From Deltaproteobacteria bacterium (GTDB lineage: Bacteria > Desulfobacterota > Syntrophobacteria > Syntrophobacterales > Syntrophobacteraceae), in assembly GCA_021777755.1 (NCBI GenBank), contig JAJYDE010000001.1:1-64000 (forward strand): a stretch of 64,000 nt of DNA. Direction: 5' to 3'. The position numbers were made by a program, and so were the translations under genes. Numbering within the stretch: position 1 is the first letter of the stretch; the number at the start of each line of letters is the position of its first letter. Of the stretch, positions 20,399 to 38,950 are shown in pieces. The notes beneath the pieces are model-generated. The model ran no database searches and was not told the origin of the DNA. It saw only the letters and a program-made list of their open reading frames with translations.

Positions 20399-22324
20399 TC
20401 AGGGCTCGATGCTCAATAATTTCCTCCAGCGCGGCAGTCCACTGTCAAGGCAGAAATAAGGTTTGGCTGTAGGTATATCTTTTCTCTTATCGTGTTGCAA
20501 GGCAAGCGCGAGTTCGTTCGGACCGGTAACATACACTACGCTACTCAGTCCACGTAATGGGCTTAAATTAAAACTGTTTACGTCCAGAACCGATATAACG
20601 TGGAGGCCGGCGAGGTAGGCGTCGACAGCCGCCGAGGTTACATTGCTGGTGAAAACCACATCGCAGGCAACCAGCAATTCCCGAAGAGGGGCGACCGTAA
20701 TTTCCAGTTTAATCGAGGGATAGTCATCAGCTCTTATCGTGCAGGCTGGGTGGGGTTTGACAACATAGCGCGAATCTGACGGCAGACTCTTAGAGGCGGT
20801 CTCGAGCCACTCCATCATCTGGTGGCTCACTTCGGGGAGGTAATCGCCACAGATAAGGATATGGAGTGCACCTTCCCGATATGGAACCGCAACTGGCCAC
20901 TCTTTCAAGTAAAGATACCGCAGAGCTTCGACCTCGATTAGCTGGTCTTCCGGATAGCCACCACCCTGGTAGGCCGCCCATGGGACCGGACCATTCACCG
21001 CAACCCGATCGGGCATGGGCAAGTCATTGAGACCCGGGCGTTCATAGTTTCTGGGATCGTAAAAGTAGCGAAGATCCCAATACCTGACCGTCGTATGGGG
21101 CACGCCGATCAAGGTGCCATGACCTGATGTCTTCCAGGCATGTACGAAGGCCATTTCCCAGCTCTGATTCTCCTGTAGGTAGACTCCAATTTCCTGGTAC
21201 GGCATCTTCTCGAGGGTCGTCTCAAAAAGGTTCAAGAACATACAATTCAGGACTGCGCTGGCTCCAAATATGGAATCGCACCATTCTTGCTTAAAAAGCG
21301 GCCATAAGTCTAATTTTGAGCCCGCTGCGGAGAAATGGCGTTTGGCTGCTCGAATTCCAGGGGCCCGGAAAACAAGACGGACGTAGTCTCGCAAGGCAGC
21401 CAGCACCACGGGGATGTCGAGCGCCCCACCGAAGCATGCGTGAAGCTGTCCCCCTTTGGCATTGTCTCTGAACCGGTCCATCAGGCTTCGTGCCTTCGGG
21501 GCAGAGGGGACGTCCTCGCACTCGACGAAATGGTGCAGCCAGTTGGTCTTGAGTGCCGCACGATTGAGAACCTCAGGTAAGTCTGTCCAATAATTGGAGG
21601 CAAACTCTCCCGTCGAATTGATCTTTGGACCAAGATGGACCAAGTAATCGACAAAAGTTATCCGAGTTCCCGAAGCCTCGGCCTTTTGCCGCAGTGGCCA
21701 ACGTTTCCAAAGATAGCGCATGATGGTGACAAACGCCCTGATGGGATGCGGCATGCCGTTGTAGAAACGTCTTGTAAAGGATAGCTCTCGGTTTTGAGAT
21801 TTAAGGCGCCGCCACTCGAATGATCTGCCCACATTGCCACACCATAGCCGGCACACCGTGGCAAGGGTTCGATCACTGCTCGCCAAAGCCATTCGACCGG
21901 GTTGGATTGAATCAATTAGATCTTCCAGTGCCATTAACCGGAAGGCGTCATAGATTCTCTTGGAGTTTGCGTAGTTTTTTTCCACCAGCAGGGTCATCCA
22001 CCAGTAGCTGAACCCCGGTCTGAGTTGAAGTCGATCAACGAGGCGGATGCTTCCAAGATGCGTCTGCCCCAGTTCATAAATCCATTCCAAATAGCGCTTT
22101 CGCAGAGCTTCCGCGTTTTCTTCGACCAACTGGGGCAGAGATAGTGTATCCTCGGCTGTCTCTTTGGCAAAACCAGCCCACAGAACTGTCCGCCAGGGTC
22201 CTTTGGGCGGCGGCGCTTCGGAATCCCACAGTAGCAAGGTGTGGCCTGAGCCTGTTTCTTCCTTTGCATCGATATGCCAGATACTCAATTTGGCAGGGCG
22301 ACTTGAGGAGCGGGCAATTTTCAT
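20399..22324 (-). CDS. TIGR04326-family surface carbohydrate biosynthesis protein
   Basis: 641 residues, close to the usual length for this poorly characterised family found in LPS/capsule loci. Recognisable blocks are LRKRYLEWIYELG, RPGFSYWWMTLLVEKN and KRIYDAFRLMALEDLI near the N-terminus. The middle has GTLIGVPHTTVRYWDLRYF. The C-terminal GT-B-like half has YVVKPHPACT and CDVVFTSNVTSAAVDAYLAG, reminiscent of nucleotide-sugar or CDP-glycerol type transferases. The ATG overlaps the stop of the upstream acyltransferase (ATGA). Enzymatic role is unknown; glycosyltransfer is the best guess. Confidence 0.82.
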   Translation of the reverse strand: MKIARSSSRPAKLSIWHIDAKEETGSGHTLLLWDSEAPPPKGPWRTVLWAGFAKETAEDTLSLPQLVEENAEALRKRYLEWIYELGQTHLGSIRLVDRLQLRPGFSYWWMTLLVEKNYANSKRIYDAFRLMALEDLIDSIQPGRMALASSDRTLATVCRLWCGNVGRSFEWRRLKSQNRELSFTRRFYNGMPHPIRAFVTIMRYLWKRWPLRQKAEASGTRITFVDYLVHLGPKINSTGEFASNYWTDLPEVLNRAALKTNWLHHFVECEDVPSAPKARSLMDRFRDNAKGGQLHACFGGALDIPVVLAALRDYVRLVFRAPGIRAAKRHFSAAGSKLDLWPLFKQEWCDSIFGASAVLNCMFLNLFETTLEKMPYQEIGVYLQENQSWEMAFVHAWKTSGHGTLIGVPHTTVRYWDLRYFYDPRNYERPGLNDLPMPDRVAVNGPVPWAAYQGGGYPEDQLIEVEALRYLYLKEWPVAVPYREGALHILICGDYLPEVSHQMMEWLETASKSLPSDSRYVVKPHPACTIRADDYPSIKLEITVAPLRELLVACDVVFTSNVTSAAVDAYLAGLHVISVLDVNSFNLSPLRGLSSVVYVTGPNELALALQHDKRKDIPTAKPYFCLDSGLPRWRKLLSIEP

Positions 22325-22935
22325 TTTCCTTCTCCGCGAGAAGCCATTTCAGGATCGCGCCACTTTAGAACTCTCGCAGGCACTCCGCCAACGACGGAGT
22401 ACGGGGGAACATCCTTTGTAACAACTGCCCCAGCACCCACCACGGCGCCGTCACCAATAGTGACATCTTTGGTTATTACACAATGAGAGGAGATCCAAAC
22501 ATCGTTGCCGATAACAATGCTCCCCGGTTGGTGCCCCTGGTTTCTTATCGGCACATCGAGGCGAGCGAACCGATGGTCAGCCGAGCGCACAACACAATAA
22601 GGACCAATGAGGACATCATTGCCAATTTGGATGGAACCGTTTCCCGAAGCATCCAGGATGGAGCCGATGTTCACCGCCAGGTTGCTGCCCGTAGTGAGTT
22701 CTCCATCTATTGCGATCAACGAGCAACGATCCGCTATTGAATTATTGGGCCCTAGAGAGATATTTCCCGGTGCACGAAGCTCAACTCCTTTCCCCATATA
22801 GAAGGTAGTTGCCTGCCGGAATAGCGGACGGAGTGCGAACTGCCTGATCTTGACGCCCAAAGCGGTAGGCAGCAGGCCCAACAGCCAACAGTAGAGTTCA
22901 GTTAGTTCGCCGAACAATCTTGAAGCAAGCATCAC
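22321..22935 (-). CDS. Hexapeptide-repeat (LbetaH) acyltransferase
   Basis: 204 residues. Hexapeptide repeats run from about residue 55 (LRAPGNISLGPNNSIADRCS) through IGNDVLIGPYCVV to VTIGDGAVVGAGAVVTKDVP, ending YSVVGGVPARVLKWR. SADHRFARLDVP contains the catalytic-type His. Probably an O-acetyltransferase acting on the polymer or a precursor. Coupled by ATGA to the TIGR04326 gene. A 425-base gap separates it from the HAD gene upstream, so a local promoter is possible. Confidence 0.85.
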   Translation of the reverse strand: MMLASRLFGELTELYCWLLGLLPTALGVKIRQFALRPLFRQATTFYMGKGVELRAPGNISLGPNNSIADRCSLIAIDGELTTGSNLAVNIGSILDASGNGSIQIGNDVLIGPYCVVRSADHRFARLDVPIRNQGHQPGSIVIGNDVWISSHCVITKDVTIGDGAVVGAGAVVTKDVPPYSVVGGVPARVLKWRDPEMASRGEGK

Positions 22936-23360: not shown

Positions 23361-24035
23361 TTAGGTCATAATGCAAAGAATTTCGGAAAAATCTCTTATC
23401 CATGCAATCTCGGGAGCAGCTTTGAGCAACGGTGCGCATGGACCCGGCAAAACTCCAATGAAGGGCACCCCGCAGGCCTTCGCCGCCTGGTAATCGCTTT
23501 CGGCGTCTCCGAAAAAACAGCACCTCGTAGGGGCAAACCCATGATCGCGGAGCAATTTCGCCAAATGATCTTTTTTACTGACCGGGGCGCCCAAAACATC
23601 TCTGAAGTATTTCGACCAACTCCTGCGGGAGACGATGTCCCTGATTTCGGTCTCGGGGGTTGCGGAAACGATAAAGCAGGGCGCATCTTGGCAGCACCTC
23701 CGCACGAAAAGCGAACTGGAAGGGATTTCGGGGGCGGCGACAACTTCATCGACAACGATGGCGGCAAACCTGGCACACAACTGGCTAAGTTCGGTCTCAT
23801 CAAGGGGCAGGTCCAAAAACTCGCGGTAGTAACACTTGAACTTGTCAGTGCGGGTCATACCCCCGTTTTTTCGGTGATGATCGACCACCGCGTCTTCGAT
23901 CGAAGGTCCGAAATGCTCGAACAGTTTTGCGAAAGCGCGGGTTTTTACTTCGACCGAATCCACCAAAACGCCGTCAAAATCGAAGAAATATGCATCGCAG
24001 TTTTTAAGGTCCATGACCTTTAACCTCGTTTTCAT
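23361..24035 (-). CDS. HAD-superfamily phosphatase
   Basis: 224 residues. AYFFDFDGVLVDSVEVKTRAF holds motif I (DxD nucleophile), FIVSATPETEI the motif II Ser/Thr region, KKDHLAKLL the motif III Lys, and RCCFFGDAESDYQAA motif IV with acidic residues. It should dephosphorylate a small phosphate ester. Its start overlaps the upstream SDR stop (ATGA). In this context it is the likely counterpart of KdsC: removing phosphate from a keto-deoxy sugar acid before CMP activation. Confidence 0.85.
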   Translation of the reverse strand: MKTRLKVMDLKNCDAYFFDFDGVLVDSVEVKTRAFAKLFEHFGPSIEDAVVDHHRKNGGMTRTDKFKCYYREFLDLPLDETELSQLCARFAAIVVDEVVAAPEIPSSSLFVRRCCQDAPCFIVSATPETEIRDIVSRRSWSKYFRDVLGAPVSKKDHLAKLLRDHGFAPTRCCFFGDAESDYQAAKACGVPFIGVLPGPCAPLLKAAPEIAWIRDFSEILCIMT

Positions 24036-24964
24036 CTGGCCCGGCCCTTACCGAGTTCGACAGGGCTGGGCAGCGATGCTCCAGAGTGGTCGTTTTCGCG
24101 GTAGACCTCCTCCACGAGGTCCAGTATACCCTGTCCGATGTCCACAAAAACACTGGGCACCATCTTATGGGCGACCTTGGGGGTAAAACGGTAAGGAGTG
24201 ATCATGTAATGGGCGGCATCTCGCATCTCGGGTCTGAACTCCAGATCGACATTTCCCCCCATGATTTCCCGGATCATCCCGAGCAGATCGTTGGAATCGA
24301 GAACCTGTGTTCCCGTAACGGTAAGACACTGATTTGCGAAGCGTTGGTCGAGGGCTTCGATGCTCATTCTGGAGGCATCCTTGACATGTATGTACTCGCG
24401 ACGCTCCTCTCCGCTTCCCGGATAGACGATCCGGCCCTGGCGCACCGCCTGGGTTACGTAATTTTTGAGGCCGTTCCAGGCCTGAGACCTCGGACCATAA
24501 AGGGAGCCGTAGCGCAGGATGGTGTATTCCAAACCGAACCGCTCGTTGTAGGCTTCAATAAGAAGTTCGACAGCCTGCTTGCTTACCCGGTAAAAGGACC
24601 CATGCTGGCTGTAGACATACACGGTGGAGGCGAACAGGACTCTTTCGATTTTTTTCTTGAGGCAATTTTCAAGGACAAGGGTGCTGCCAATAATATTACG
24701 TTCCACCGTGGCCCTTGGCGAGGCGGCCGCCTCCCCGATATCGGCTATGCCGGCCAGGTGAAATACAAACCGTGCCCCATCGAGGCAGTTGCCAAGGGCG
24801 GTCTCATCGAGAATGTCGCCAACGTGCATCTGCTGGCCCTGCTTGAGCCACCGCGAAGGATGGAGATCGTAAAGGCAGACCTCATAGCCGGCATCTGTGG
24901 CCGCATCCGCTATATGGCTTCCCAAAAACCCCGAGCCGCCAATTACAACGACTTTGTCTTTCAT
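24032..24964 (-). CDS. NAD-dependent sugar epimerase/dehydratase (extended SDR)
   Basis: 310 residues. VVVIGGSGFLGSHIADAA binds NAD(P); VLFASTVYVYSQHGSFYRVSKQAVE contains the catalytic Thr/Ser and an intact YxxxK; ILRYGSLYGPRSQAW and SGEERREYIHVKDA are family hallmarks. It would oxidise, reduce or epimerise a sugar, probably nucleotide-bound. Coupled by ATGA overlaps to the dehydrogenase gene upstream and the HAD gene downstream, making the three one translational unit. Confidence 0.85.
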   Translation of the reverse strand: MKDKVVVIGGSGFLGSHIADAATDAGYEVCLYDLHPSRWLKQGQQMHVGDILDETALGNCLDGARFVFHLAGIADIGEAAASPRATVERNIIGSTLVLENCLKKKIERVLFASTVYVYSQHGSFYRVSKQAVELLIEAYNERFGLEYTILRYGSLYGPRSQAWNGLKNYVTQAVRQGRIVYPGSGEERREYIHVKDASRMSIEALDQRFANQCLTVTGTQVLDSNDLLGMIREIMGGNVDLEFRPEMRDAAHYMITPYRFTPKVAHKMVPSVFVDIGQGILDLVEEVYRENDHSGASLPSPVELGKGRAR

Positions 24965-25893
24965 AGTACCCCCGCCTTGCGCAGACCGTCCAAAAGATTC
25001 TCAACGGCGGTTTGTTCCATCAAGACCCTTGCTTCCCTTGCATAGGAGCCAATGTGCGGAGTAAGAACGACGTTTTCCAGGCTGCACAACGGGCCGTTGT
25101 AGGGCTCATTTTCGAAAACATCGAGGCAGGCGAACCGTACGCGCCCGTTCAGCAGACAATCATGGAGAGCGTTCTCATCGACAAGGCCACCCCTGGCCGT
25201 GTTGAGCACGATCGAGCCTTTTTTCAGGCTCCTTAGTTCTGCCTGGCCAAGAACTCTGTTCTGGCCGCTTGCATGGAGGGTGACAATATCCGATTCACAG
25301 AGCAGTTCGCCAAGTGATACTGCCCTTGCCCACGGAAAATCGAATAACTGGAGATCATGGAAGATTACTTTGGCCCCGAATGCATCCGCAAGTTTGCCAA
25401 CCCGCTGTCCGATTTGACCGAACCCGACCACCCCGACGGTTTTGCCAAGCAGCAGGCTACCCATCTGTTTTTGCCAGACGCCAGAGCGCAATTTGCGGTC
25501 AGCCGAGGAAACAGATCTGAGAGCCAGGAGAACCAGACCGATAGTAAGCTCGGCAACCGCGTCGGTCAGCACGCCGGATGTGCGATAGACGAGGATTCCC
25601 AACTTGCCCGCCGCTTCCCTGTCCACGTTGTCCCAGCCGACTCCCACCCTGGAGATTACCCGCAGATATTGTGCCGATTGTTCAAGGACGGCACAGGTAA
25701 CCGGTTCGGTGCCTGCCAGCAATCCAACCGGCTTATGTAATTGGAGCAGGTCTTGCAATTCTCTTTCGCTCAATTTCCGCCCCGTTGGATTGGTTATCAA
25801 GCTGAGTCCATGTTCTGAGAAAACAGATGGTATCTCGGGCGATTCGGCCCCGAAAGACGAAGTGGTTGCAATAACTGTTTTTGACGAAATCAT
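24961..25893 (-). CDS. D-2-hydroxyacid dehydrogenase (phosphoglycerate dehydrogenase-like)
   Basis: 310 residues, the short catalytic type without ACT domains. VGVVGFGQIGQRVGKLADAF is the NAD loop. The catalytic Arg lies in the NTARGGLVDE block, Glu in DVFENEP and His in LTPHIGSYA. The N-terminal RVISRVGVGWDNVDREAA is family-typical. It interconverts a 2-keto acid and a D-2-hydroxyacid. Next to an aldolase and a KdsB-like enzyme, it may provide or reduce a 2-keto acid intermediate of an unusual sugar acid rather than serve serine synthesis; this is inference. Confidence 0.87.
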   Translation of the reverse strand: MISSKTVIATTSSFGAESPEIPSVFSEHGLSLITNPTGRKLSERELQDLLQLHKPVGLLAGTEPVTCAVLEQSAQYLRVISRVGVGWDNVDREAAGKLGILVYRTSGVLTDAVAELTIGLVLLALRSVSSADRKLRSGVWQKQMGSLLLGKTVGVVGFGQIGQRVGKLADAFGAKVIFHDLQLFDFPWARAVSLGELLCESDIVTLHASGQNRVLGQAELRSLKKGSIVLNTARGGLVDENALHDCLLNGRVRFACLDVFENEPYNGPLCSLENVVLTPHIGSYAREARVLMEQTAVENLLDGLRKAGVL

Positions 25894-26069
25894 TGGAGCA
25901 CCTTATCCTCATTTACCTCAGCACAACGGTAGTCCCGCCAGCCTTCAGCCTTGTGGAAATTATGCAAAAGAAAATAACCGCCGGGCAAGACAAATATGTC
26001 GGCATCGGGAATGCCGAGCCTCTTAGACCCGTAAAGGACTGCCTGTAAAGCGATGCCCGCTGCAAGAAA
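25890..26069 (-). other. In-frame 59-codon continuation after the methyltransferase stop
   Basis: Directly after the TAA of the methyltransferase (26072-26070) the same frame stays open for 59 codons. It ends in a TGA that overlaps the next gene's ATG (ATGA, 25893-25890). The translation is protein-like: AGIALQAVLYGSKRLGIPD, then ADIFVLPGGYFLLHNFHKAE. It has no obvious in-frame start of its own. It may be the end of an ancestral longer methyltransferase cut by a nonsense mutation, or the tail of a lost gene. Confidence 0.5.
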
Positions 26070-27044
26070 TTACCTTCTCGCGCACACCACCATCATATGG
26101 GAGCTGAGAAGGTGTGAGGCGAGATATTCCTGTAGATCCTGCCTGTCGGTTTCCGTGGTGATACGGAAAAAAGTATGCCAAAATCTGTCTGATACGCTAT
26201 CGATGTTGTTATGGACGATGTCTACGTCCAGTTTGCCGGGAGTGCTGATTTCCAATGGCTCAAAACCGCATGAATCGAGCAACAGCTTAATGGAGCGCGG
26301 GTTGAAAAAATTGAGATGATGGGGCGGCGAGACAGATTTCGAATTCTCCCACAGAACTTGTATGTCAGCCCCGGCGCTGCTGAGTGTCGTGAAGATGAAG
26401 ATATCCTGCTCGCTCATGAGGCCCCTAAGGCTGCCAAGAAACAGTGCGGGGTCATGAAGGTGCTCGAACAGCTCGAAGCTTACAAAACAGCGTTTCTTTT
26501 CATCGAGATCGGCCTCGCGAAGATCTTCAAGAAATTTTTCCACAACGATGAAGCCTTTGGCCCTGCATACTTGTGCCAAACATTTCGACGGTTCGACAAT
26601 GGTGACCTTATGATTGGAAATCCTGCGAATCTCTTCGGCAAAGGTCCCGTAGCCACCTCCTATGTCAATGAGCTGTTCAATGTTTGGAAACCTCGACAGA
26701 ATATCCATGATTGATTTGGCCTTCGGTTTCCATAACTTTTCGCGCCTGGCGGGTTCGGTCTGCCTGTAGAAAGTGGTCGCCCAATACCGGGTGGACGGTG
26801 AGTCGGTATAGTAGTTTTCGAAGGCGCTTCGCACCGGACGCGGATTAACGAACAACGTTAGGCAGTTCGGGCATTGCGCGTAGGCAAAACCATTTTTTTC
26901 AAACGCGGCCTCTCCGTCAGCCCCGCAAGCGGGACAGGGCTGTCCGGTACGAGGAGCATCGGCGAAATAAGTCTGAGTATCTATGGCGGTCAGGCGAAGG
27001 TATTCGTCGAATATGTCCTGCGGCCGGATCTCATGCTCTTTCAT
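26070..27044 (-). CDS. Class I SAM-dependent methyltransferase with zinc ribbon
   Basis: 324 residues. The N-terminal zinc ribbon has PCPACGADG and AQCPNCLTLFVNPRP (residues about 35-70). SAM motif I is QLIDIGGGYGTFAEEI, and VSFELFEHLHDPALFL and FNPRSIKLLLDSCGFEPLE are the usual later blocks. Such proteins often C- or O-methylate nucleotide sugars or related acids. Its start overlaps the KdsB-like gene by 14 bases, so it belongs to the same biosynthetic unit. Confidence 0.87.
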   Translation of the reverse strand: MKEHEIRPQDIFDEYLRLTAIDTQTYFADAPRTGQPCPACGADGEAAFEKNGFAYAQCPNCLTLFVNPRPVRSAFENYYTDSPSTRYWATTFYRQTEPARREKLWKPKAKSIMDILSRFPNIEQLIDIGGGYGTFAEEIRRISNHKVTIVEPSKCLAQVCRAKGFIVVEKFLEDLREADLDEKKRCFVSFELFEHLHDPALFLGSLRGLMSEQDIFIFTTLSSAGADIQVLWENSKSVSPPHHLNFFNPRSIKLLLDSCGFEPLEISTPGKLDVDIVHNNIDSVSDRFWHTFFRITTETDRQDLQEYLASHLLSSHMMVVCARR

Positions 27045-27804
27045 AGAGTCTCACAAGTTGGTCGTTTTCCATGAGCGCCTCGACGTGTTTCAGATCCTCG
27101 GCCGTATCGACGGCATGAGTCGAAAAACGGGTTTTGATCATCCGGATTTTCATGCCATTCTCAAGAATGCGGAGCATGTCGACAGATTCGATGATTTCCA
27201 GGGGGGTCTGCTCCATGCTGTTATAAGTCAAAAGGAAATCGCGCCTGAACGGAATAATCGGAACTTGCTTGAACATTGGCGGCCGGCCCGAATATTTTTT
27301 GCGTGAAGGAACAGGTTCCCTGGAAAAAAAGAGTGCGTTGTCGTACTTATCCAAGACAACCTTGACCTGGTTGGGATCTTCGAATTCCTCCCGCGACTCA
27401 ATTAGCCCCATCAGGTTGGTAACTAAAACGGCCGGATCTTCCAGCATGGGCTGGAGGGCTTCACCGATCATTTCAGGGTGCACCATTGGCTCGTCGCCCT
27501 GTATCATCGCCAGAATATCAATGGGCTTTCCGGTCAGTTCCTCGATTTTGAGCATGGCCTCGGCGCATCGGTCGCTGGCCCTTTCGTGGGTATCGGCCGT
27601 CATTACAGCCTTCCCCCCCACCGATTCGACGTAGTCGTAGACCTCCTTGTCGCAGGTGGCCACGAAAACATCGTTTAGCAAAGAACACATCGCGCATCTA
27701 TGATAGACGTGACCAATCATGGGAATGCCCCTGATTTTGGCCATCGGTTTATTTGGAAATCGAGTCGATGCCATCCTGGCAGGTATGACTCCAACAATTT
27801 GCAT
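27031..27804 (-). CDS. KdsB-like CMP-3-deoxy-sugar-acid cytidylyltransferase
   Basis: 257 residues with the CMP-Kdo synthetase signatures: VIPARMASTRFPNKPMAKI, VATCDKEVYDYV, VMTADTHERASDRCAEA, and MIQGDEPMVHPEMI. The C-terminal RFSTHAVDTAEDLKHVEAL also fits. It should transfer CMP from CTP onto the anomeric OH of a 3-deoxy-ulosonic acid. The partner genes are not those of Kdo synthesis (no KdsA/KdsD nearby) but an HpcH/HpaI aldolase and dehydrogenases, so the substrate may be a different, shorter or modified keto-sugar acid. Confidence 0.85.
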   Translation of the reverse strand: MQIVGVIPARMASTRFPNKPMAKIRGIPMIGHVYHRCAMCSLLNDVFVATCDKEVYDYVESVGGKAVMTADTHERASDRCAEAMLKIEELTGKPIDILAMIQGDEPMVHPEMIGEALQPMLEDPAVLVTNLMGLIESREEFEDPNQVKVVLDKYDNALFFSREPVPSRKKYSGRPPMFKQVPIIPFRRDFLLTYNSMEQTPLEIIESVDMLRILENGMKIRMIKTRFSTHAVDTAEDLKHVEALMENDQLVRLYERA

Positions 27805-27854
27805 TTTAGACTCCTGGGTTCAGTGGAAGCAAGACAAATTATCGACTGCGGGCT

Positions 27855-28607
27855 TCACAGGCTCGGTCGACCGGCGCCCCGGCAGAGAAATACGGTATCA
27901 ACCCCGTAGGCGATGAAGACATAGCCTTGGGCGATCCTCTCGGCTAGTTCGCCGGGGTCAGGCTGGACTACATGAATTCCAACGGCAACACCGCTGTCGA
28001 AGGCTTTGCGTGTGATGGTTTCGAGCATGGCCTTGAAATCAGGATGATCGAGTTGCCCGGTCAATCCCATGGAGCCCGAAAGATCGTAAGGACCTACCAT
28101 GATGGCGTCGAGGCGGGGGTGTGCCAGGATTTCCCCTAGGTTATCGAGGGCACGGATGTGCTCGATCTGCGCGCAAAAAAGGGTATCCGCGTTTGAGGCA
28201 AGCCCCCGCACAAATTCCTCCCCGAAAGAATTGGCCCGACAAAAACCCACCCCGCGCATGCCTGCCGGAGGGTAGAGCGAAAGAGCGATGGCTTTGTCCA
28301 ATTGCTCCCGGGATTCGATCATCGGGAAAATGAGTCCTCCGGCCCCGGAGTCCAGGGCACCCTTGATGGAAGTCATTGTGCAATCGGCCACCCTGGCGAA
28401 AGGAACAGCTCCGCCCGACTCGATTGCCCGGAAAATACCAGGCAAATCGCTTCTTGTAAAGGCACCGTGCTCCAAGTCGACCGCAACCCAGTCATAACCG
28501 GCCCGCCCCATTATTTCCGCTACGTCGGGACTTGGTATCTGCAGCCAGGAACCAATGGATGCTTTCTTAGCCTTGATCGTATTCTTGATATCGACTACCG
28601 AAGACAT
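27855..28607 (-). CDS. HpcH/HpaI-family aldolase
   Basis: 250 residues from the ATG at 28607 (GGGAG eight bases upstream). Class II metal-dependent pyruvate aldolase: WVAVDLEHGAF, GGLIFPMIESREQL, and a metal-site Glu in CAQIEHIRAL. The metal Asp is in MVGPYDLSGSMGL, and YPPAGMRGVGF is typical. These enzymes join or cleave pyruvate and an aldehyde to form 4-hydroxy-2-keto acids. Between Wzx and a KdsB-like gene, it probably builds a 3-deoxy-2-keto sugar acid for CMP activation, replacing the PEP-dependent KdsA/NeuB reaction. The very C-terminus diverges from common homologues. Confidence 0.87.
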   Translation of the reverse strand: MSSVVDIKNTIKAKKASIGSWLQIPSPDVAEIMGRAGYDWVAVDLEHGAFTRSDLPGIFRAIESGGAVPFARVADCTMTSIKGALDSGAGGLIFPMIESREQLDKAIALSLYPPAGMRGVGFCRANSFGEEFVRGLASNADTLFCAQIEHIRALDNLGEILAHPRLDAIMVGPYDLSGSMGLTGQLDHPDFKAMLETITRKAFDSGVAVGIHVVQPDPGELAERIAQGYVFIAYGVDTVFLCRGAGRPSL

Positions 28608-28623: not shown

Positions 28624-30174
28624 TCATGCAGCGCCGCCAAACCGCTTTAGGGAACTCAGGTAAGGCAGGCTCCCGTCTATAAATGACGCAATATCCCCCC
28701 GACTTAGTCCGAAGATGACCGGCCACAAATAGGCCAGAGTCATTACAAATCCGGTATAAAGAAGCCCGGAGGCAACAAAATGAAATATGACATTGCCTTT
28801 CAAAGTGACAATTTGTAAAATAATAGCTTCAGAGAACAAAGCGGCAGCGCCAAGGCAACCCATACAAACTACTTGGTGTCCTAAATATTTAATGAATGAA
28901 AGCTTGAGCAAACGAGTGCTAAAAAACAATAACGAGTTAACGCTTAAAAATTGAAGAATAACAAATTTGATAGCAAGCCCCGTAGCAGCTTGTCTGAATC
29001 CGAACCATTCCGAATGAGCAAGTATCACATATGAAAAGGGAAGCCCTAGTGAATTGAAGAAAATCAGTATATTCCGATATAATTTAGTCTCCCCAGAGGC
29101 AAAGAAAATCGCCCCGACAAGCTGGCCATAGGTTTGATGGATAGGGTAAAGCGCCATTATCATTACCGGCAAAAAAGCGCCGGCAAACTGCCTGCCGCCG
29201 AAAATACGCGTTATTATATCGGCCTGAACGGAGGCGAAGCAGGCGAAAAAGGCCGCGACGCTGAAGAACAACGGTAAATAACGCCGAAAAAGGCTCGCCA
29301 CGCTCGCCATATCATTTTTCCCGTAGGCAATTGAAAACTCCCTGGTGATCAATGACGTCATGGCCGAAGTAAATAGAAAGCAGACGGTGGCAATTTGGAA
29401 TGAAAGACCAAAAAAACCTTGTTGCACACTGCCACCGAATTTCTGGAGCATCCAGCGATCGAGAATACCGAGAACCATACCAATCACAGTATAAACAAAA
29501 AGTGGGTGCGTATATTTATAAAATTCTGAAAGATAGTTCTTCATTTGATGCCGACTCAGCTTCCAATGCTGATAAAACAACCTTCTGTCGCGATTGATCA
29601 CAAATAAAAAACCGATAACGATAACAATTCTTATCCCACATTCATACCCGAAAAAAGAGGTCAGCGTCAAATGATTGGTGAAAAAAATGAACACGATGGC
29701 GCATAACCCAATGGATCTGATTATGATCCTTGATATTTCAATTGATACTGTTAGACAATACGCATCACCTATCATTGTTAACATATTAATAAGCATGTTA
29801 AGAACGCCCCACCCGGCCGCAAAACATACGAAGAAAATGGTCTGGTGTATCCACAAGGTATGCGATGCTCCGGTAAATTCGCTAATGGCAACAAAAGTAA
29901 ATATGCCCGCAATGGACATGGCAATCACTCGGGCATAAAAGCTGAGAAGCTCGAATTCATCCTGGCGTTGGCATAGTTTGGTATAAAAAGCCGTATCTGT
30001 ACCCAGTGTGAAAAGTGGCAGAACCTGCGAGAAAAAATTCGACAGAAAGGAAAAATCGCCATAAGCTGTCGGTCCCAATCCGCGCGGAATTATACTTTGC
30101 GTCAGAACGCCGATAATCATACCAACAAGGTTGGTCGACAGCTTGGCGGCGTACCGCTTTTTAAGAGAAGACAT
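28624..30174 (-). CDS. Wzx-type oligosaccharide flippase
   Basis: 516 residues with about 12-14 membrane helices; N-terminal KLSTNLVGMIIGVLTQSIIP and LGPTAYGDFSFLSNFF are typical of the polysaccharide biosynthesis (MATE/MOP) family. It should flip undecaprenyl-linked repeat units to the periplasm. It is noticeably more AT-rich than flanking genes, as is usual for flippases and suggestive of transfer. It sits 15 bases after the Wzy stop and 16 bases before the aldolase start. Confidence 0.87.
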   Translation of the reverse strand: MSSLKKRYAAKLSTNLVGMIIGVLTQSIIPRGLGPTAYGDFSFLSNFFSQVLPLFTLGTDTAFYTKLCQRQDEFELLSFYARVIAMSIAGIFTFVAISEFTGASHTLWIHQTIFFVCFAAGWGVLNMLINMLTMIGDAYCLTVSIEISRIIIRSIGLCAIVFIFFTNHLTLTSFFGYECGIRIVIVIGFLFVINRDRRLFYQHWKLSRHQMKNYLSEFYKYTHPLFVYTVIGMVLGILDRWMLQKFGGSVQQGFFGLSFQIATVCFLFTSAMTSLITREFSIAYGKNDMASVASLFRRYLPLFFSVAAFFACFASVQADIITRIFGGRQFAGAFLPVMIMALYPIHQTYGQLVGAIFFASGETKLYRNILIFFNSLGLPFSYVILAHSEWFGFRQAATGLAIKFVILQFLSVNSLLFFSTRLLKLSFIKYLGHQVVCMGCLGAAALFSEAIILQIVTLKGNVIFHFVASGLLYTGFVMTLAYLWPVIFGLSRGDIASFIDGSLPYLSSLKRFGGAA

Positions 30175-30189
30175 AATAGCTTGCCATTG

Positions 30190-31728
30190 TCAATCGACGG
30201 CCCGTATTGAATTCGCTATTGAGATTTTTTCCGCGTCCCACATACGATAATCGCGAATGCCGTTAAATGCGTTCAAAATTCCATAGTATAAACCGATTAC
30301 AAGAAGGTTTCTTATGATCGCCGTTATGAAAAGGGACGCACCCATATTAATGAGAAGTTCCCAATAGGCTTCACAAAACCACACAATTATAAAGGGTTTG
30401 AAAACGCTCTTCCCGTAGGCGATTTTCCTCCACACATAAGATATCAATAAAGCGTATATATAGAGAATGGGCAGTGCCGCGACATAACCGAAAAATAAGT
30501 ATATGTATTCATAAATACCGAAATACTCGGTATTGTAAATTGTAGGGTCTGTCAGCCCAAGATAGACGAATGAGTAAACCGCCGGCCCACGAATGACATC
30601 ATCGAAAGGCTTTCCGATGACTTGAGGTACACACCCATTTATAGAATCTTCCAAAATAGTTTTAAGATTAATATATTTCTCCGGAGGCACTTTCCAACGG
30701 TCATTCATAATTGCAAGCGATGGCGGCAGATTGGTGACTCTTAATAACACATCCGTTGCCAATAAAGCAAAAGCCGAATCATGGCGTTGATTATTATTAA
30801 AGTAAAGCCATTTGACAGAATTAATAACCGATTTGAATGATAATCTGTTATGTATGGCATATCGTATTCCGGATGTCACGCCAAATAAGAGAATTGCTGA
30901 AAAAGCCACTAATGCGAATATAGGTATGCTGCGCACTGGTATTGTGGGAGATCTAAATTTGACGAAAAACAGAAATACCGTCAAAAGAGATAGGGAATAA
31001 ATAAAAGACCTGGAGCCGGACAAATAGCTGACAACAGAGCACAGACATAAAATAACGACGCATATTCGAAAATCAGACCGAATGAGTGATTTGTATTTCA
31101 GTATAATGTATCCTAAAGAAAGCCAGATAAACGGACTCGGATTAATAAATAGTGAAAGGAAGTTAGCATTGGAATTTGCATTTGCTGAAGATGATCCCTG
31201 ATACACATCATAAACAAAAGTATTGTATAGAAACCTGATGCCAAGCAAAAAAATCACCATGATTAACAGCGTTTTCGGTTTTATCGGCAGCATCGACTTC
31301 GTGGATGATATGTCGTCATTGGAACGGTCCATATTGCGTGCATCATCGTCCGAAAACCTACATAGCGCAGATACAAACATGAATGTAGAGAAAATGGCAT
31401 ATATCATGACGTGATTGACGTCATGATGGGTAAAAGATTCGAAGGATGAAAATCGCCATCCTCCGTTGACACGTGGAATTATTAGCATTCCAACCACGGA
31501 TCCACAATATTTTTCGAGCACATAAATAGCAAGAAAAACCAGGAGGGGATAATTAATTCCTTTATAAAAAGCAAGAGGGATAATTATGATGATGGAAAGG
31601 CAAAGCATATACAAAATGGTATTTGAATTCACCAGGTCCTGAAGGGGTCCCGTGGCGAAAAGCGCCATACAAATAATAGCGTTAAAGATGAATGCGATGA
31701 TCAGGAGAGTCGAAACACGGACCGTCAT
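30190..31728 (-). CDS. Wzy-type O-antigen/capsule repeat-unit polymerase
   Basis: 512 residues with about 11-13 membrane helices, AT-rich codon use, and a large periplasmic loop after VVSYLSGSRSFIYSLSLL (the SGSR-type motif is common in OligoSac polymerases). A second soluble region (about 285-400) contains DDVIRGPAVYSF. Sequence identity in this family is low, so the call rests on topology, size and the Wzx neighbour. Likely polymerises flipped repeat units in the periplasm. Confidence 0.8.
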   Translation of the reverse strand: MTVRVSTLLIIAFIFNAIICMALFATGPLQDLVNSNTILYMLCLSIIIIIPLAFYKGINYPLLVFLAIYVLEKYCGSVVGMLIIPRVNGGWRFSSFESFTHHDVNHVMIYAIFSTFMFVSALCRFSDDDARNMDRSNDDISSTKSMLPIKPKTLLIMVIFLLGIRFLYNTFVYDVYQGSSSANANSNANFLSLFINPSPFIWLSLGYIILKYKSLIRSDFRICVVILCLCSVVSYLSGSRSFIYSLSLLTVFLFFVKFRSPTIPVRSIPIFALVAFSAILLFGVTSGIRYAIHNRLSFKSVINSVKWLYFNNNQRHDSAFALLATDVLLRVTNLPPSLAIMNDRWKVPPEKYINLKTILEDSINGCVPQVIGKPFDDVIRGPAVYSFVYLGLTDPTIYNTEYFGIYEYIYLFFGYVAALPILYIYALLISYVWRKIAYGKSVFKPFIIVWFCEAYWELLINMGASLFITAIIRNLLVIGLYYGILNAFNGIRDYRMWDAEKISIANSIRAVD

Positions 31729-32607: not shown

Positions 32608-34368
32608 TCACTTTGCGCCAAGCCAACCCCGATGGCCTTGCGGCCGAAGTAGCTTACTGAATTCTTCCGCCCAATCTTTTTTCCAATTGGTGCTCTTTTT
32701 TGCAAACTGGCGGCAAAATTCGTCCCTTGCACCTTTGACATCAGGCGTATTCCACCAACTGGCAGGATCGCCTGAAATTTCGTTAAGTTTGAAGGCCGCG
32801 CCCTGGGATGAATCGTGCAATATGCCCGCTTGACGCAAAGAGTGGAAATATGGTTCAGCCGATTCGCGCAGCTCCCAATGTAAGGGATTCCAGAACAAGA
32901 TGGTGGGTTTTCCGCTTGCCAATGCTTGTAGCATGGTAGTTACCGGATGATCGATTATCAGTAAGGTACTTTCGCTCAGGCGGTTTTCGAAGGCTATTTG
33001 ATGTGTATCGAAATGCAATTCCGGAAATTCTTTTAATAACGCGTCCTTTTCGTTTCTGCGGTAATCGCTAAAATACATGCGCATGAGAACGTAATCTCTA
33101 TTGTAGTCAGATAATGCGTTTAAAAATGAAGACCTCCAACGAATGTATTCCTGAAAAGAGTCAGAAACGGGGGTGCTGGTAAATCGGTACAGGTAGCGTG
33201 GGTGAGAGGTTGTTACGAACAGGTACAATGCTTTCAGAGGCCCCGACGTCTTAACGCTGCCGTTTGTCTTTGGATTGGGTAAAGACCGTATTAAAGGTGA
33301 ACCGGTGGAATTGCACCCCCATGTGTAATACAGATCGGTTATATCCCTCTCATGTCGTTCAACCGGCATCCATTTGGCTGAGCGATATAGTCCGCCATGT
33401 TGCATGCCACACAGCAGCCCTCCATTTTCCGCGAATGTGGCCGCATAGAATTTCAATCTTTCATTTGCAAAAAGACCTCCGGTGGTGACCAGAACCGAAT
33501 TGTGCCTGGAGGCGGGCATGCAACGTCGAAGATGCTCGAAACCTTCAAGGTAGAGGGTTGGGAAATTGACAGGCAAGCTGGCAACAAGCGCCCTCGTAAA
33601 ATCGTCGATGCAGGGCAAATTCGCAAGGCCCGATCTATTCTCGGAGATAATTTTTTCATAACAGGGCAAGTTTTCGTGAGTGTAAACCGGGACAGCACGG
33701 AAACGGCTCACGAGCGCAATGTGCAATAAATCACGAATGGGCAGATTAACATCCAATAGGGCAATTGAAAATTTGGAAGCCAGCAAGCTTGTGAGCCTGA
33801 AGGCGGTTTGTTGCGGAAGACTCTTGGATTTCGCCCGCACACGCCCGGATAGCATTGCAATGTCCGCTCCTTTAACCGGACATTGAATGCCAAGAAAATT
33901 CATGACCTGGCTGTATTGTTGGAGAGCGCAGAAATCATCATAAGAAAAAGTGGCAAAGTGAGCCATATCGTGGGGGGTGATGAAACTCCCGGGATCGAGC
34001 AAAATCGTCTCGACTTCGCCGTAGCTGTCGAGAGCCTTTAAAATAGAGCGGTATCTATCATAGAAAGTCTCGATCAGCGAAAGCAGCCATGGTCCCAGAA
34101 TTATTTGCCAGAAACGTTTGGAATGATTTGTATGGTGAACTGCGTTCAGGTATTCGGTGAGGTTATCTAAAAGCTTATGATAAATTTCGTAGGTGTATTT
34201 GCCGGCCAGGTAGTATTGCTCGCGATCGAGCCAAAGGCTGGGCATTACCTCGTATTCAAGATTCTTCAATGCAGGCTCGTTCGAGGGCAAGAGGCACCAC
34301 GACCCCAGAAAGACCGTCTTCTTTCGAGTGTCCCAGAAGGAGTCGATTGCAGTGGTTGCCAGAAACAT
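32608..34368 (-). CDS. LIC12162-family putative transferase
   Basis: 586 residues. The opening FLATTAIDSFWDTRKKTVFL with GSWCLLPSN, and later LNAVHHTNHSKRFWQIILGP, are characteristic of the LIC12162 (TIGR04331) family, first named from the Leptospira LPS locus and present in surface polysaccharide clusters. The C-terminal part (LLIIDHPVTTMLQALASGKP) looks like a GT-B donor site. Reaction unknown. The ATG immediately precedes the NeuB-type gene's end (adjacent, no gap), so the two are likely linked functionally. Confidence 0.85.
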   Translation of the reverse strand: MFLATTAIDSFWDTRKKTVFLGSWCLLPSNEPALKNLEYEVMPSLWLDREQYYLAGKYTYEIYHKLLDNLTEYLNAVHHTNHSKRFWQIILGPWLLSLIETFYDRYRSILKALDSYGEVETILLDPGSFITPHDMAHFATFSYDDFCALQQYSQVMNFLGIQCPVKGADIAMLSGRVRAKSKSLPQQTAFRLTSLLASKFSIALLDVNLPIRDLLHIALVSRFRAVPVYTHENLPCYEKIISENRSGLANLPCIDDFTRALVASLPVNFPTLYLEGFEHLRRCMPASRHNSVLVTTGGLFANERLKFYAATFAENGGLLCGMQHGGLYRSAKWMPVERHERDITDLYYTWGCNSTGSPLIRSLPNPKTNGSVKTSGPLKALYLFVTTSHPRYLYRFTSTPVSDSFQEYIRWRSSFLNALSDYNRDYVLMRMYFSDYRRNEKDALLKEFPELHFDTHQIAFENRLSESTLLIIDHPVTTMLQALASGKPTILFWNPLHWELRESAEPYFHSLRQAGILHDSSQGAAFKLNEISGDPASWWNTPDVKGARDEFCRQFAKKSTNWKKDWAEEFSKLLRPQGHRGWLGAK

Positions 34369-35427
34369 CTATCTCAACATCTCCCAGTGGAGCACGTCAT
34401 CTTCGGAAATATCGGAAGCTGCTCTTTTGCCGATAACATCGGGGAAAAATCTCGGGCTGACGCCCGTGGCCGGCCGTTTCCAGGTCAAATCGGCCTCTGC
34501 CAGGATTTTTCCCGCAGGGATCGACTTCGCGGCCACCAGACTGCGCCTTGCATTTTTCCGCGCAGGTTCTTCAGAAGGAAGGGGCGCCTTTCTAAAATCG
34601 CCAAGCAATTCAAAAGTCCGCTCGATATTGGCTTTAAACATCTTAAGATCGTGTCTGTCCATTGCATGATAGTGATCATTGCCGGGCAGCGACTTGTCGA
34701 AGGTAAAATGCTTCTCCAAAATGGAGGCGCCGAGCAGTGTGGCTATTTCCAGCACTTTCATGTCATTGGGTAAAGTATGATCGGAATAGCCAATAAGGGT
34801 GCGAGGAAATTTTTCACGCAGGTGCAAAATCATTCCTAAATTGGCGTTGTGGTCCTCGGTGGGGTAATTGAGTACGCAGTGAAGCAATGCCAGGGAATTT
34901 CCGCACTTCTCAATCCAACTGACGGCCTCCTCGATTTCATGGAGATAGGATGCTCCGGTCGATAAAATGATTGGTTTGCCAAACCGGCAGATATACTCGA
35001 TGAAGGGCCTGTTGGTGATGTCGGAAGAGGATATCTTGAAGACATCCATCAAATCGTTTAAGAAATCCGCCGACTCCAGATCGAACGGCGTGCTCAGGAA
35101 TTCGATTCCCTCCCTGTCGCAGCGGTTTTTGAGCTGGACGTATTCATCCTTCCAGAAGCGGTCGTATTTTTTGAAAAGTTGGAACTGACTGGGTGTGGGC
35201 TCCTTGTTGAGGTCCCAATAAGCCGGTGAGTTCTTTGAAGCGATTGTATGCGCTTTGTAGGTTTGGAATTTGATGGCGTCGGCGCCGCCTTCGGCGGCTT
35301 CGGCGATGAGTCGCATCGCCAGGTCCATGCTCCCCTCGTGGTTCACTCCAGCCTCGGCAATAACGACAGGTTTGTAGAGCCTGGGTTTTCCCGGATGAAA
35401 CTCTTTGGAAACATCAAAAAGCCTCAT
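34369..35427 (-). CDS. NeuB/SpsE-family sialic-acid-type synthase
   Basis: 352 residues. Condenses PEP with a hexosamine-type aldose to give a nonulosonic-acid-like product. The TIM barrel has VIAEAGVNHEGSMDLAMRLI, GADAIKFQTYKAHT, FLSTPFDLESADFL, FKISSSDITNRP and EKHFTFDKSLPGNDH. The C-terminal SAF (antifreeze-like) domain starts near residue 285 with ARRSLVAAKSIPAGKI. It overlaps SpsF by ATGA. The set SpsC/E/F/G-like parallels the Bacillus spore-coat polysaccharide operon, so the product may be an SpsE-type sugar acid rather than Neu5Ac. Confidence 0.9.
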   Translation of the reverse strand: MRLFDVSKEFHPGKPRLYKPVVIAEAGVNHEGSMDLAMRLIAEAAEGGADAIKFQTYKAHTIASKNSPAYWDLNKEPTPSQFQLFKKYDRFWKDEYVQLKNRCDREGIEFLSTPFDLESADFLNDLMDVFKISSSDITNRPFIEYICRFGKPIILSTGASYLHEIEEAVSWIEKCGNSLALLHCVLNYPTEDHNANLGMILHLREKFPRTLIGYSDHTLPNDMKVLEIATLLGASILEKHFTFDKSLPGNDHYHAMDRHDLKMFKANIERTFELLGDFRKAPLPSEEPARKNARRSLVAAKSIPAGKILAEADLTWKRPATGVSPRFFPDVIGKRAASDISEDDVLHWEMLR

Positions 35428-36116
35428 TTTTGTCCTCCGAATATGTCAACGAGCTCAAGGGCTGTTGCTTCCAGATTGAAAGCCTTAAGCGCCAGTTTCC
35501 GATAGTCTTCAAACGTGTCTATGTCCAGTTTGATCCCGGGGTTGGCAACACGCGGCTCCGGGGGATCGAACGTCTTCATGACGAAGTCCCCGGGATGGTC
35601 GGCGATGTAGGAAAGGCAGTGTTCCCTGTGCCGGGGCAGTGTCGCTAATCGATCCAATTGTTTTAGCAGTTCAAACGAAACGATCTCGGCCCCCAGGCCG
35701 TCCGGATATGAATTTCCAATCGGGCTTTGATTGAACGCGTAGTCGCAGGGATTGTCGCGGTAAAAAAGGATGAGATTATCGATCTCATCGCCGCAGATAA
35801 GCGGGTTGTCGGCGCAGATCCTCACGACGTGAGTCGCCCTTTTCCCTTCTGCTGCCAGCACGAACCTTCTCAGCACGTCCTGTTCGGGTCCGCGAAAGCA
35901 CTCGACTCTCAATCTTTTGAGTTCGGCCTCCAGGATATCGTTTTGGGGCGTATCGGGTATGGCCACAATCATCGAGTCGAGCAGGCGGGAGGCCGAGGTC
36001 CTTCTGACAACCCATTCTATTATGGGGCGCCCGTGAAGACAGAGCAACATTTTGTTCGGGAGCCGGGTCGAACCGAGTCTGGCCTGGATTACGCCGACAA
36101 TGAAATCTTGGTTCAT
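35424..36116 (-). CDS. SpsF-like cytidylyltransferase
   Basis: 230 residues. VGVIQARLGSTRLPNKMLL is the nucleotide-binding signature with the RLGSTRLP variant typical of SpsF; GRPIIEWVVRR, VVRICADNPLICG and YPDGLGAEIVS follow. It should activate a sugar acid with CMP. It is the second of three probable CMP-transferases in the locus and is flanked without spacing by the PseG fusion and the NeuB-type synthase. Confidence 0.88.
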   Translation of the reverse strand: MNQDFIVGVIQARLGSTRLPNKMLLCLHGRPIIEWVVRRTSASRLLDSMIVAIPDTPQNDILEAELKRLRVECFRGPEQDVLRRFVLAAEGKRATHVVRICADNPLICGDEIDNLILFYRDNPCDYAFNQSPIGNSYPDGLGAEIVSFELLKQLDRLATLPRHREHCLSYIADHPGDFVMKTFDPPEPRVANPGIKLDIDTFEDYRKLALKAFNLEATALELVDIFGGQK

Positions 36117-37736
36117 CTACTCCACCAATTTTTGTATCATGGAAACTACTGTGGACTTGTTTTTAAGGAAATCAAACCGGACCATCCGGTCGAAAAGCGC
36201 TCTGCGATAGTCTATATCCAGCACGAGGTGTTTTAGCTGCGCTTCAACGGCAGTCTGGACGCAGCCGTCCTCAACACAGCCTGCGGAAAGAAAGCCGTTA
36301 TCAGCGCAAGCAAAGCCGTGGGTTTCCTCACGTTTGTGCTGGGAGATGACGATTGAGGGGATGTTCATGTGCGCCAGCTCATAGACCGTCCTGCCATTGG
36401 AGCACACGGCGATATCCGCGGCCTCCATGAGCTTGGAGATGATACCGGTGGCGAAAGTAAAATCAACTTCCTCATACCCGCAGTTCCGGATGAATTCGGC
36501 GAGATCGTTTTTATGGGAATAGCCTGGCCCTGTCACGATTTGAACGAATATGGAGTGTTGTTTGCAAATCGGCAGTATTCGTGACAGGACTTTCTGTGTC
36601 AGATTATGCTGGTCCGTGCCTCCGAAGGTGACGAGAATGTTGCGCACCATCGGTTGGAACGAACGAGGAACGGCATAGAGAAATTCTTCCCGCAGGAAGA
36701 AGTATTCATGGCCCCAGAAAATGTTGCCGCTTTCATCGGTTGCCGACTCCGCGTAGAGCTCGTTGAATGTGATATTGCTGTGGCAGGCGCCCGAGCCGAG
36801 GTCTTCGAAATTGACCACCCGAATGCCGTTGTCTCTTAGCCTGCGGACATAGGATGCGTCGGTGTCGAGAATGTCATTTATTACCAGATGCGGTTCCAGC
36901 GCAACAATCTGATCCGCTATCTCCTCGTCGGGGAAAACGTGAATGAGGTAATCACTTCCGGTGATCCGATTTACGGCGAGCATGCTCGACTTGTCGGACA
37001 CGAAGATAATCTCGTGGTCCGTTATTTCGTGGGCCAAAGTCAGGCAACGGTAGATGTGGCCCATGCCGACGTTGCGGTTTCCTATGACTCTGAAGACTAT
37101 CCGCCTTCTTTTGAGCAGTTTTTCGCAAACCCACCAATCCCGGTAACTGGTTATCTCACAACTCTCTTTTTCCAGTATAAACGGCTCGACAGATGGATTC
37201 GTATTTTTCTCTCGAATAAGATTAGACCTTAGAAGTACGAAACCTTTCACCTCGACCATTATCTGGCTGTGATTATCCGCCAGAAAGGTCTGGCCTAAGC
37301 TTGCGTGATTGGCCCCATATACTCTCAGTCTTTGCTTTTTGACCGAAACGAGCACATCGGGGCGCTTATCTTTGAATACGTTATATGCATCACAAATTAC
37401 ATCCGGAGAGATTAAAGGAGCGTAAGGGTACATTATCAGAAGATAGGGGTATTCTCTGTAAAGCTTGAGTGTTTGGACTCGAAGGTTTTGGAGGATGTTG
37501 TCCCCCTTAAGTCTCAACTCCGGATTATAAAAGCATCGCACCCCATTCTTTTCGCATACGAGGCCTATTTCCTGAGAATCGGTCGCAACGACAATGTTAT
37601 CGGCTGATGTTATTGATTTTCCGGTGTCGATTATTCGTTGAATGAGGGGCGTTCCGCCAAGCTTCTTGATCAGATCGTCAGGAAACGCTACATTCTTCTT
37701 AATCGCAGGTATGAGGATGCACAGTTCGCTTTTCAT
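36117..37736 (-). CDS. Cytidylyltransferase-PseG (SpsG) fusion protein
   Basis: 539 residues with two domains. Residues 1 to about 210 resemble CMP-sugar-acid cytidylyltransferases (CILIPAIKKNVAFPDD, KKLGGTPLIQRIID, NIVVATDSQEIG), but the usual RGGSKG loop is replaced by AIKKNVAF. Residues about 212-539 resemble PseG, the UDP-sugar hydrolase of pseudaminic acid synthesis. These include GNRNVGMGHIYRCLTLA with the family His, NFEDLGSGACHSNI, ILVTFGGTDQHNLT and ADIAVCSNGRTVYELA. It would release UDP from an amino-sugar and perhaps help activate the product. It overlaps the DegT stop by four bases. Confidence 0.85.
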   Translation of the reverse strand: MKSELCILIPAIKKNVAFPDDLIKKLGGTPLIQRIIDTGKSITSADNIVVATDSQEIGLVCEKNGVRCFYNPELRLKGDNILQNLRVQTLKLYREYPYLLIMYPYAPLISPDVICDAYNVFKDKRPDVLVSVKKQRLRVYGANHASLGQTFLADNHSQIMVEVKGFVLLRSNLIREKNTNPSVEPFILEKESCEITSYRDWWVCEKLLKRRRIVFRVIGNRNVGMGHIYRCLTLAHEITDHEIIFVSDKSSMLAVNRITGSDYLIHVFPDEEIADQIVALEPHLVINDILDTDASYVRRLRDNGIRVVNFEDLGSGACHSNITFNELYAESATDESGNIFWGHEYFFLREEFLYAVPRSFQPMVRNILVTFGGTDQHNLTQKVLSRILPICKQHSIFVQIVTGPGYSHKNDLAEFIRNCGYEEVDFTFATGIISKLMEAADIAVCSNGRTVYELAHMNIPSIVISQHKREETHGFACADNGFLSAGCVEDGCVQTAVEAQLKHLVLDIDYRRALFDRMVRFDFLKNKSTVVSMIQKLVE

Positions 37737-38917: not shown

Positions 38918-38950
38918 CGCTGTTTCCATCTTTGGTGATGCGGATAGTAA

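Follow-up and report, generated by a model that had tools for sequence, protein, structure and literature searches.

The window analysed here is a stretch of 64,000 nucleotides from a deltaproteobacterium of the Syntrophobacteraceae (contig JAJYDE010000001.1). A block of six genes on its minus strand (23361–28607) encodes, in reading order, an HpcH/HpaI aldolase, a KdsB-like cytidylyltransferase, a methyltransferase, a 2-hydroxyacid dehydrogenase, a short-chain dehydrogenase/reductase (SDR) and a HAD phosphatase. All six genes are real and lie where a first-pass annotation of the sequence had placed them, and the family of each was confirmed by Pfam. The annotation had limited the set to these six; it overlooked a hexapeptide acetyltransferase and a TIGR04326 protein (a probable glycosyltransferase for a cytidine monophosphate (CMP)-sugar), which belong to the conserved set. 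The eight genes are as follows:

27855–28607, minus strand: HpcH/HpaI class II pyruvate aldolase, 250 amino acids (aa), PF03328 (HpcH_HpaI) 106 bits; proposed carbon-joining step
27031–27804, minus strand: KdsB-like cytidylyltransferase of a distinct clade, 257 aa, CTP_transf_3 152 bits; proposed CMP activation
26070–27044, minus strand: zinc-ribbon S-adenosylmethionine methyltransferase, 324 aa, PF13489 (Methyltransf_23) 55 bits; optional tailoring
24961–25893, minus strand: D-isomer 2-hydroxyacid dehydrogenase, 310 aa, PF02826 (2-Hacid_dh_C) 153 bits; proposed redox step
24032–24964, minus strand: extended SDR, 310 aa, PF01370 (Epimerase) 135 bits; proposed epimerase or oxidoreductase
23361–24035, minus strand: HAD-IA phosphatase, 224 aa, PF13419 (HAD_2) 53 bits; proposed dephosphorylation (KdsC-like role)
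22321–22935, minus strand: left-handed beta-helix (hexapeptide) acetyltransferase, 204 aa, PF00132
20399–22324, minus strand: TIGR04326 family GT-B protein, 641 aa, TIGR04326 534 bits; candidate transferase of the CMP-sugar

Overlaps had been claimed at four junctions of the block. As read from the sequence, overlaps occur at three of the five internal junctions: KdsB-like/methyltransferase (14 nucleotides, nt), dehydrogenase/SDR (ATGA) and SDR/HAD (ATGA). The other two are gaps (aldolase/KdsB-like, 50 nt; methyltransferase/dehydrogenase, 176 nt). The acetyltransferase and TIGR04326 genes overlap by 4 nt, outside the block and downstream of the HAD gene.

The conservation of this neighbourhood was followed from two starting points. 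A scan of GTDB species genomes seeded with the aldolase yielded 79 loci, the majority from Desulfovibrionaceae. Most of these have the order aldolase–SDR–KdsB-like–acetyltransferase–HAD, some with the dehydrogenase; many of the contigs are truncated, and a KdsB homologue is found in 65 of the loci, an SDR in 67, a HAD phosphatase in 56 and an acetyltransferase in 55. In most Desulfovibrionaceae loci the acetyltransferase orthologue lies between the KdsB-like and HAD genes. So as not to select for the aldolase, a second search used similarity to the KdsB-like protein alone, with matches in 20 of 297 genomes of the phylum (at 1e-60) and in 47 of 159 Desulfovibrio-family genomes (at 1e-70). The flanks of KdsB-seeded loci (35 loci, 20 genera) were scored with hidden Markov models built from the families of the aldolase-seeded loci. 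An aldolase is present within 6.5 kb and on the same strand as the KdsB subtype in 32 of the 35 loci and 18 of the 20 genera. The other partners are the HAD phosphatase (27 loci, 13 genera), the SDR (26 loci, 13 genera), the acetyltransferase (22 loci, 9 genera), the dehydrogenase (19 loci, 14 genera) and the methyltransferase (3 loci, 3 genera). None of the six families is found near the canonical KdsB genes of the same genomes (0 of 9 loci, 8 genera), and the difference in aldolase linkage between the two kinds of KdsB gives a Fisher p of 3e-7 by locus and 1.4e-5 by genus. The first-pass annotation had staked its proposal on such conservation, and the gene set is indeed kept together across the 20 genera. 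Two of the steps it had included hold in part: the methyltransferase is present in the block, but methylation is occasional and not a core step, and the dehydrogenase is frequent near the KdsB subtype, yet the minimal operon of Desulfovibrio lacks it. The window order without the methyltransferase (aldolase–KdsB–dehydrogenase–SDR–HAD) is also found in L111 and L112, and L113 has the methyltransferase and TIGR04326 as well.

Our reading is that the locus probably encodes a pathway which starts with the aldolase, does without KdsA and leads to a CMP-activated 2-keto sugar acid (ulosonic acid) other than Kdo (3-deoxy-D-manno-oct-2-ulosonic acid), for a surface glycan. The gene logic behind it is well supported by gene content, neighbourhood, the clade and motif of the KdsB-like protein, catalytic motifs and the independence from KdsA in Desulfovibrio. 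This part of the earlier proposal, in which a pyruvate aldolase in place of KdsA is followed by dephosphorylation, redox tailoring and CMP activation, stands; as to its chemistry, we infer from sequence the sugar, the substrates, the reaction order, the product and what each enzyme does. Several points weigh against the reading. Only 9 canonical KdsB loci served as controls, a small set. Three of the 35 KdsB-subtype loci (genera g150 and g55) lack an aldolase within 6.5 kb; the product of the KdsB-like enzyme may therefore sometimes be of other origin. The aldolases form at least two subtypes, those of L111–L113 and L119 being 36–45% identical to the window protein. The HpcH aldolases and the HAD, SDR and 2-hydroxyacid dehydrogenase families are promiscuous, and their substrates cannot be read from sequence. 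As a side observation, the KdsB subtype is without an aldolase in L115 and L117; since an N-acetyl sugar amidotransferase (WbuX) adjoins KdsB in L115, a different pathway may feed the KdsB-like enzyme there.

The KdsB-like protein scores 309 bits against NF009905/PRK13368 and falls below the KdsB equivalog cut-offs (TIGR00466: 153.3 vs 155.2; NF003948: 177 vs 281). In a tree of 67 rows, which contains long branches, the cluster proteins and the canonical KdsBs are parted by one branch (length 1.34, Shimodaira–Hasegawa-like approximate likelihood ratio test 100). The cytidine triphosphate (CTP)-binding loop and two Mg-binding Asp residues are retained (motifs IPARMxSxRxPxKP, QGDEP and VDT; KdsB residues for CTP and metal binding from PMC3149649), and the nucleotide motif of the cluster proteins has Met for the canonical Asn. 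The substrate motif KHxGxYAYR is replaced by KQVxIIPFRR in 104 of 104 cluster sequences and is intact in every canonical KdsB and in KpsU. The changes His to Gln, Tyr to Ile and Glu-Gln to Asp-Met occur in 103–104 of the 104 proteins, canonical LEQLR becoming VDMxR. Further columns which are invariant in canonical KdsB are fixed otherwise in the cluster (Gly to Cys, with Pro in the window protein; Leu-Glu-Gln to Val-Asp-Met). His to Gln, Gly to Cys and Tyr to Ile all fall inside RHIGVYAYR, a motif which binds the substrate according to PMC7717453, and the KdsB domain which contains it has been assigned to Kdo binding (PMC3149649). Because the substrate motif is replaced and the scores lie below the equivalog cut-offs, the product of the KdsB-like enzyme is likely not Kdo.

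These scores and motifs also bear on another explanation, namely that the enzyme is a second CMP-Kdo synthetase (as KpsU is for capsules) which acts on Kdo made by KdsA, while the aldolase and the other proteins serve unrelated sugars. Subfamily models do call the window protein a KdsB, and its genome contains KdsA INDEPENDENCE (C55) and a canonical KdsB (C21), both elsewhere, with KdsA unlinked to the block; the cluster enzyme is therefore a second, divergent copy. Against this stand the replaced motif, which KpsU keeps intact, the scores, the tight linkage of the subtype to the aldolase and the presence of the KdsB-like gene in Desulfovibrio without KdsA, and we regard a second CMP-Kdo synthetase as quite improbable. 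In Desulfovibrio (genus g73) the operon aldolase–SDR–KdsB–acetyltransferase–HAD is present in 10 of 10 genomes (G076, G109, G138, G165, G190, G235, G256, G424, G433 and G441). KdsA was not detected at 1e-60 in nine of these and is present in one; no canonical KdsB was found in the 7 Desulfovibrio genomes tested. Since KdsA is undetected there, the KdsB-like enzyme of the KdsA-less genomes, judged by gene content, cannot be KdsA-fed. A KdsB-like enzyme taking only KdsA-made Kdo would have spoken against the earlier proposal, and on this point the aldolase-initiated pathway survives.

WaaA and LpxC were also not detected in Desulfovibrio (0 of 7 and 0 of 10 genomes, respectively). The idea that the operon is a strict substitute for a lost Kdo pathway is weakened by the absence of LpxC and WaaA, by many KdsA-positive genera which have the operon, and by the KdsA-less genera g208, g209 and g224, which are mostly without it.

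Concerning the partner enzymes, the best phmmer match of the aldolase is YfaU (2vws, 9e-37). Its EH, Arg, QIE and GPYDLS motifs align with YfaU and are kept in 74 relatives (in the L084 relative, Met replaces the Gln of QIE). The metal-binding Glu/Asp and the catalytic His and Arg of class II HpcH/HpaI aldolases are present; in HpaI the catalytic residues are Arg70 and His45 (PMC8560999). In the SDR, Ser113 and YxxxK (Tyr125/Lys129) are invariant in 9 aligned cluster proteins, and the FDxDGV motif of the HAD phosphatase is kept in its relatives. The methyltransferase orthologues of L009, L084, L113 and L119 share an MKExDIRP start and CxxC pairs.

The aldolase might use a donor other than pyruvate, for example hydroxypyruvate from the 2-hydroxyacid dehydrogenase, which would give a 3-hydroxy and not a 3-deoxy ulosonic acid. 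One solved HpcH/HpaI relative (6r62) is annotated as a hydroxyketoacid aldolase and the kin of the dehydrogenase include glyoxylate/hydroxypyruvate reductases, but the Desulfovibrio operon has no dehydrogenase nearby, and we give this donor little chance. As for the acceptor, two loci offer a hint. In L084 and L125 the neighbours of the KdsB-like gene include a GmhA-like SIS isomerase and a Gfo/Idh dehydrogenase, in L084 also an inositol-phosphatase-like protein, which may point to an aldose phosphate. L084 (2757–12411) is a Proteobacterial variant with KdsB, methyltransferase, Gfo/Idh, GmhA-like SIS, inositol-phosphatase-like, dehydrogenase, aldolase, a second methyltransferase and TIGR04326.

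The same isomerases count against a non-sugar substrate, a short hydroxy or keto acid which would receive the CMP in the way that phosphonates do from PntC-type nucleotidyltransferases. Non-sugars are activated by the CTP-transferase fold (PMC6697681), the L124 locus has the dehydrogenase and KdsB but no aldolase, and the SDR loop before YxxxK is unusually short by inspection. The nearest kin, however, are sugar-acid KdsBs, and the co-occurring GT-B protein has an HP motif; such a substrate is unlikely, if slightly less so than the two alternatives above.

In the aldolase-initiated pathway which we favour, the aldolase, working in the synthetic direction, would condense pyruvate with an aldehyde (probably an aldose phosphate) to give a 2-keto-3-deoxy acid. 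The HAD phosphatase would remove the phosphate (the role of KdsC), and the SDR, together with the 2-hydroxyacid dehydrogenase in the larger loci, would carry out an oxidation, reduction or epimerisation. Decoration by the hexapeptide acetyltransferase, and at times by the methyltransferase, may follow; the KdsB-like enzyme would make the CMP-sugar, with the TIGR04326 protein as candidate transferase.

The established bacterial routes to CMP-ulosonic acids (Kdo, sialic, pseudaminic and legionaminic) start with a phosphoenolpyruvate (PEP)-dependent synthase. With the Kdo pathway (KdsD–KdsA–KdsC–KdsB) the block shares a 2-keto sugar acid, a HAD-family phosphatase step and CMP activation by a KdsB fold; it differs in the HpcH/HpaI aldolase, which takes the place of the PEP-dependent KdsA for the C–C bond, in the replaced KdsB substrate motif, and in the extra SDR, acetyltransferase and dehydrogenase. 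The nonulosonic acid pathways (NeuB/PseI/LegI with NeuA/PseF/LegF) also lead to CMP-activated ulosonic acids in surface glycans, and a gene set of this kind is present upstream in the window (34369–38929), but they use PEP-dependent synthases, and the KdsB-like protein scores in the KdsB and not the PseF/NeuA branch. The catabolic aldolases HpaI, GarL and YfaU (RhmA) have the same fold, catalytic residues and pyruvate aldol chemistry as predicted for the window aldolase, whereas the latter lies far under all equivalog cut-offs (154 vs 369 bits for HpaI) and in a glycan locus. No description of a glycan pathway with an HpcH aldolase and a cytidylyltransferase was found in the open-licence papers searched. 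Many sulfate-reducing bacteria probably contain the aldolase–CMP route, predicted from their genes, instead of the textbook PEP route. If so, it would be a second biosynthetic logic for CMP-ulosonic acids and would account for genes annotated as KdsB in bacteria that have no KdsA; tests could start from a defined operon of five genes and a candidate family of glycosyltransferases.

The window protein at 20399–22324 is by score a member of the TIGR04326/Leptospira LIC13510 family (cut-off 250 bits), for which the open-licence literature searched held no described function and nothing else relevant. A sequence search of solved structures gave no match. In the AlphaFold model (predicted local distance difference test score 84.8), residues 218–640 are GT-B-like, with NeuC/MurG-type matches at Z 12–13 (VIA, Z ~13); the comparison speaks neither for nor against any specific known Kdo transferase fold. 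KPHP is near-invariant (K523, H525 and P526), and the HP motif is common to beta-Kdo and CMP-sialic acid glycosyltransferases (PMC10148158). The GT-B-like model and the KPHP with its HP motif make the protein a candidate transferase of the CMP-sugar. In the window and in genus g236, TIGR04326 adjoins the operon; 10 of 10 Desulfovibrio genomes also have it, at a site away from the operon. In the Desulfovibrio-family sample, 23 of 27 TIGR04326 genomes have the KdsB subtype (p 4e-11, phylogeny ignored); by genus the co-occurrence is weaker (about 4–5 of 6 genera).

In Desulfovibrio, for example in D. piger ATCC 29098 (L044), the operon is compact and lies outside any obvious O-antigen locus; a lipoprotein-like gene which is conserved (44 loci) comes after it. 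The thiobarbiturate assay reacts with 3-deoxy-2-keto acids in general, and automatic 'KdsB' annotation and periodate–thiobarbiturate 'Kdo' assays may mislead in gut Desulfovibrio. Kdo, which an earlier report had declared absent, was reported in the endotoxin of D. desulfuricans by thiobarbiturate assay and gas chromatography–mass spectrometry (PMC3354558). The gene absences in Desulfovibrio (LpxC, WaaA and mostly KdsA) conflict with the published lipid A and Kdo chemistry of D. desulfuricans. A broader version of our reading, which we offer as a doubtful speculation, is that the product of the operon is the one keto-sugar acid which a Desulfovibrio cell activates by KdsB, that it could explain the 'Kdo' of this endotoxin, that the aldolase has replaced the PEP route genus-wide, and that TIGR04326 is a new family of CMP-ulosonate glycosyltransferases.

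On the minus strand between 25891 and 26069, the methyltransferase frame stays open for 59 codons past its TAA; its end overlaps the start of the dehydrogenase gene by ATGA. Truncation of the methyltransferase by this TAA was rejected, as homologues stop at the same place; no relative of the 59-codon frame was found, and it is possibly a gene remnant. Beyond the loci described above, a Kiritimatiellia locus (L074, 7365–10467) has a 59% identical aldolase whose neighbours are a 2-hydroxyacid dehydrogenase and a CTP-transferase of a different kind (78 bits to PF02348). Viral contigs scanned with the KdsB-like and aldolase queries held no relatives, and the plasmid search gave distant KdsBs only (at most 41% identity among the matches listed).

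The block sits in a surface-polysaccharide region with flippase-like and polymerase-like proteins, a nonulosonate gene set and several acetyltransferases. The two membrane proteins are:

28624–30174, minus strand: flippase-like membrane protein, 516 aa, directly upstream of the aldolase; assigned by length and resemblance
30190–31728, minus strand: oligosaccharide repeat polymerase-like membrane protein, 512 aa, TIGR04370 30.6 bits (below the 40-bit cut-off)

Pfam and NCBIfam scans gave no match for the flippase-like protein; its relatives (34–42% identity) precede the aldolase in L011–L013, L015, L072 and L119. Further upstream (32608–38929) lies the nonulosonic acid set, which consists of a NeuB-type synthase, an SpsF-like protein, a PseF–PseG fusion, a PseC-like aminotransferase and a TIGR04331 transferase; it is arranged alike in L012 and L072.

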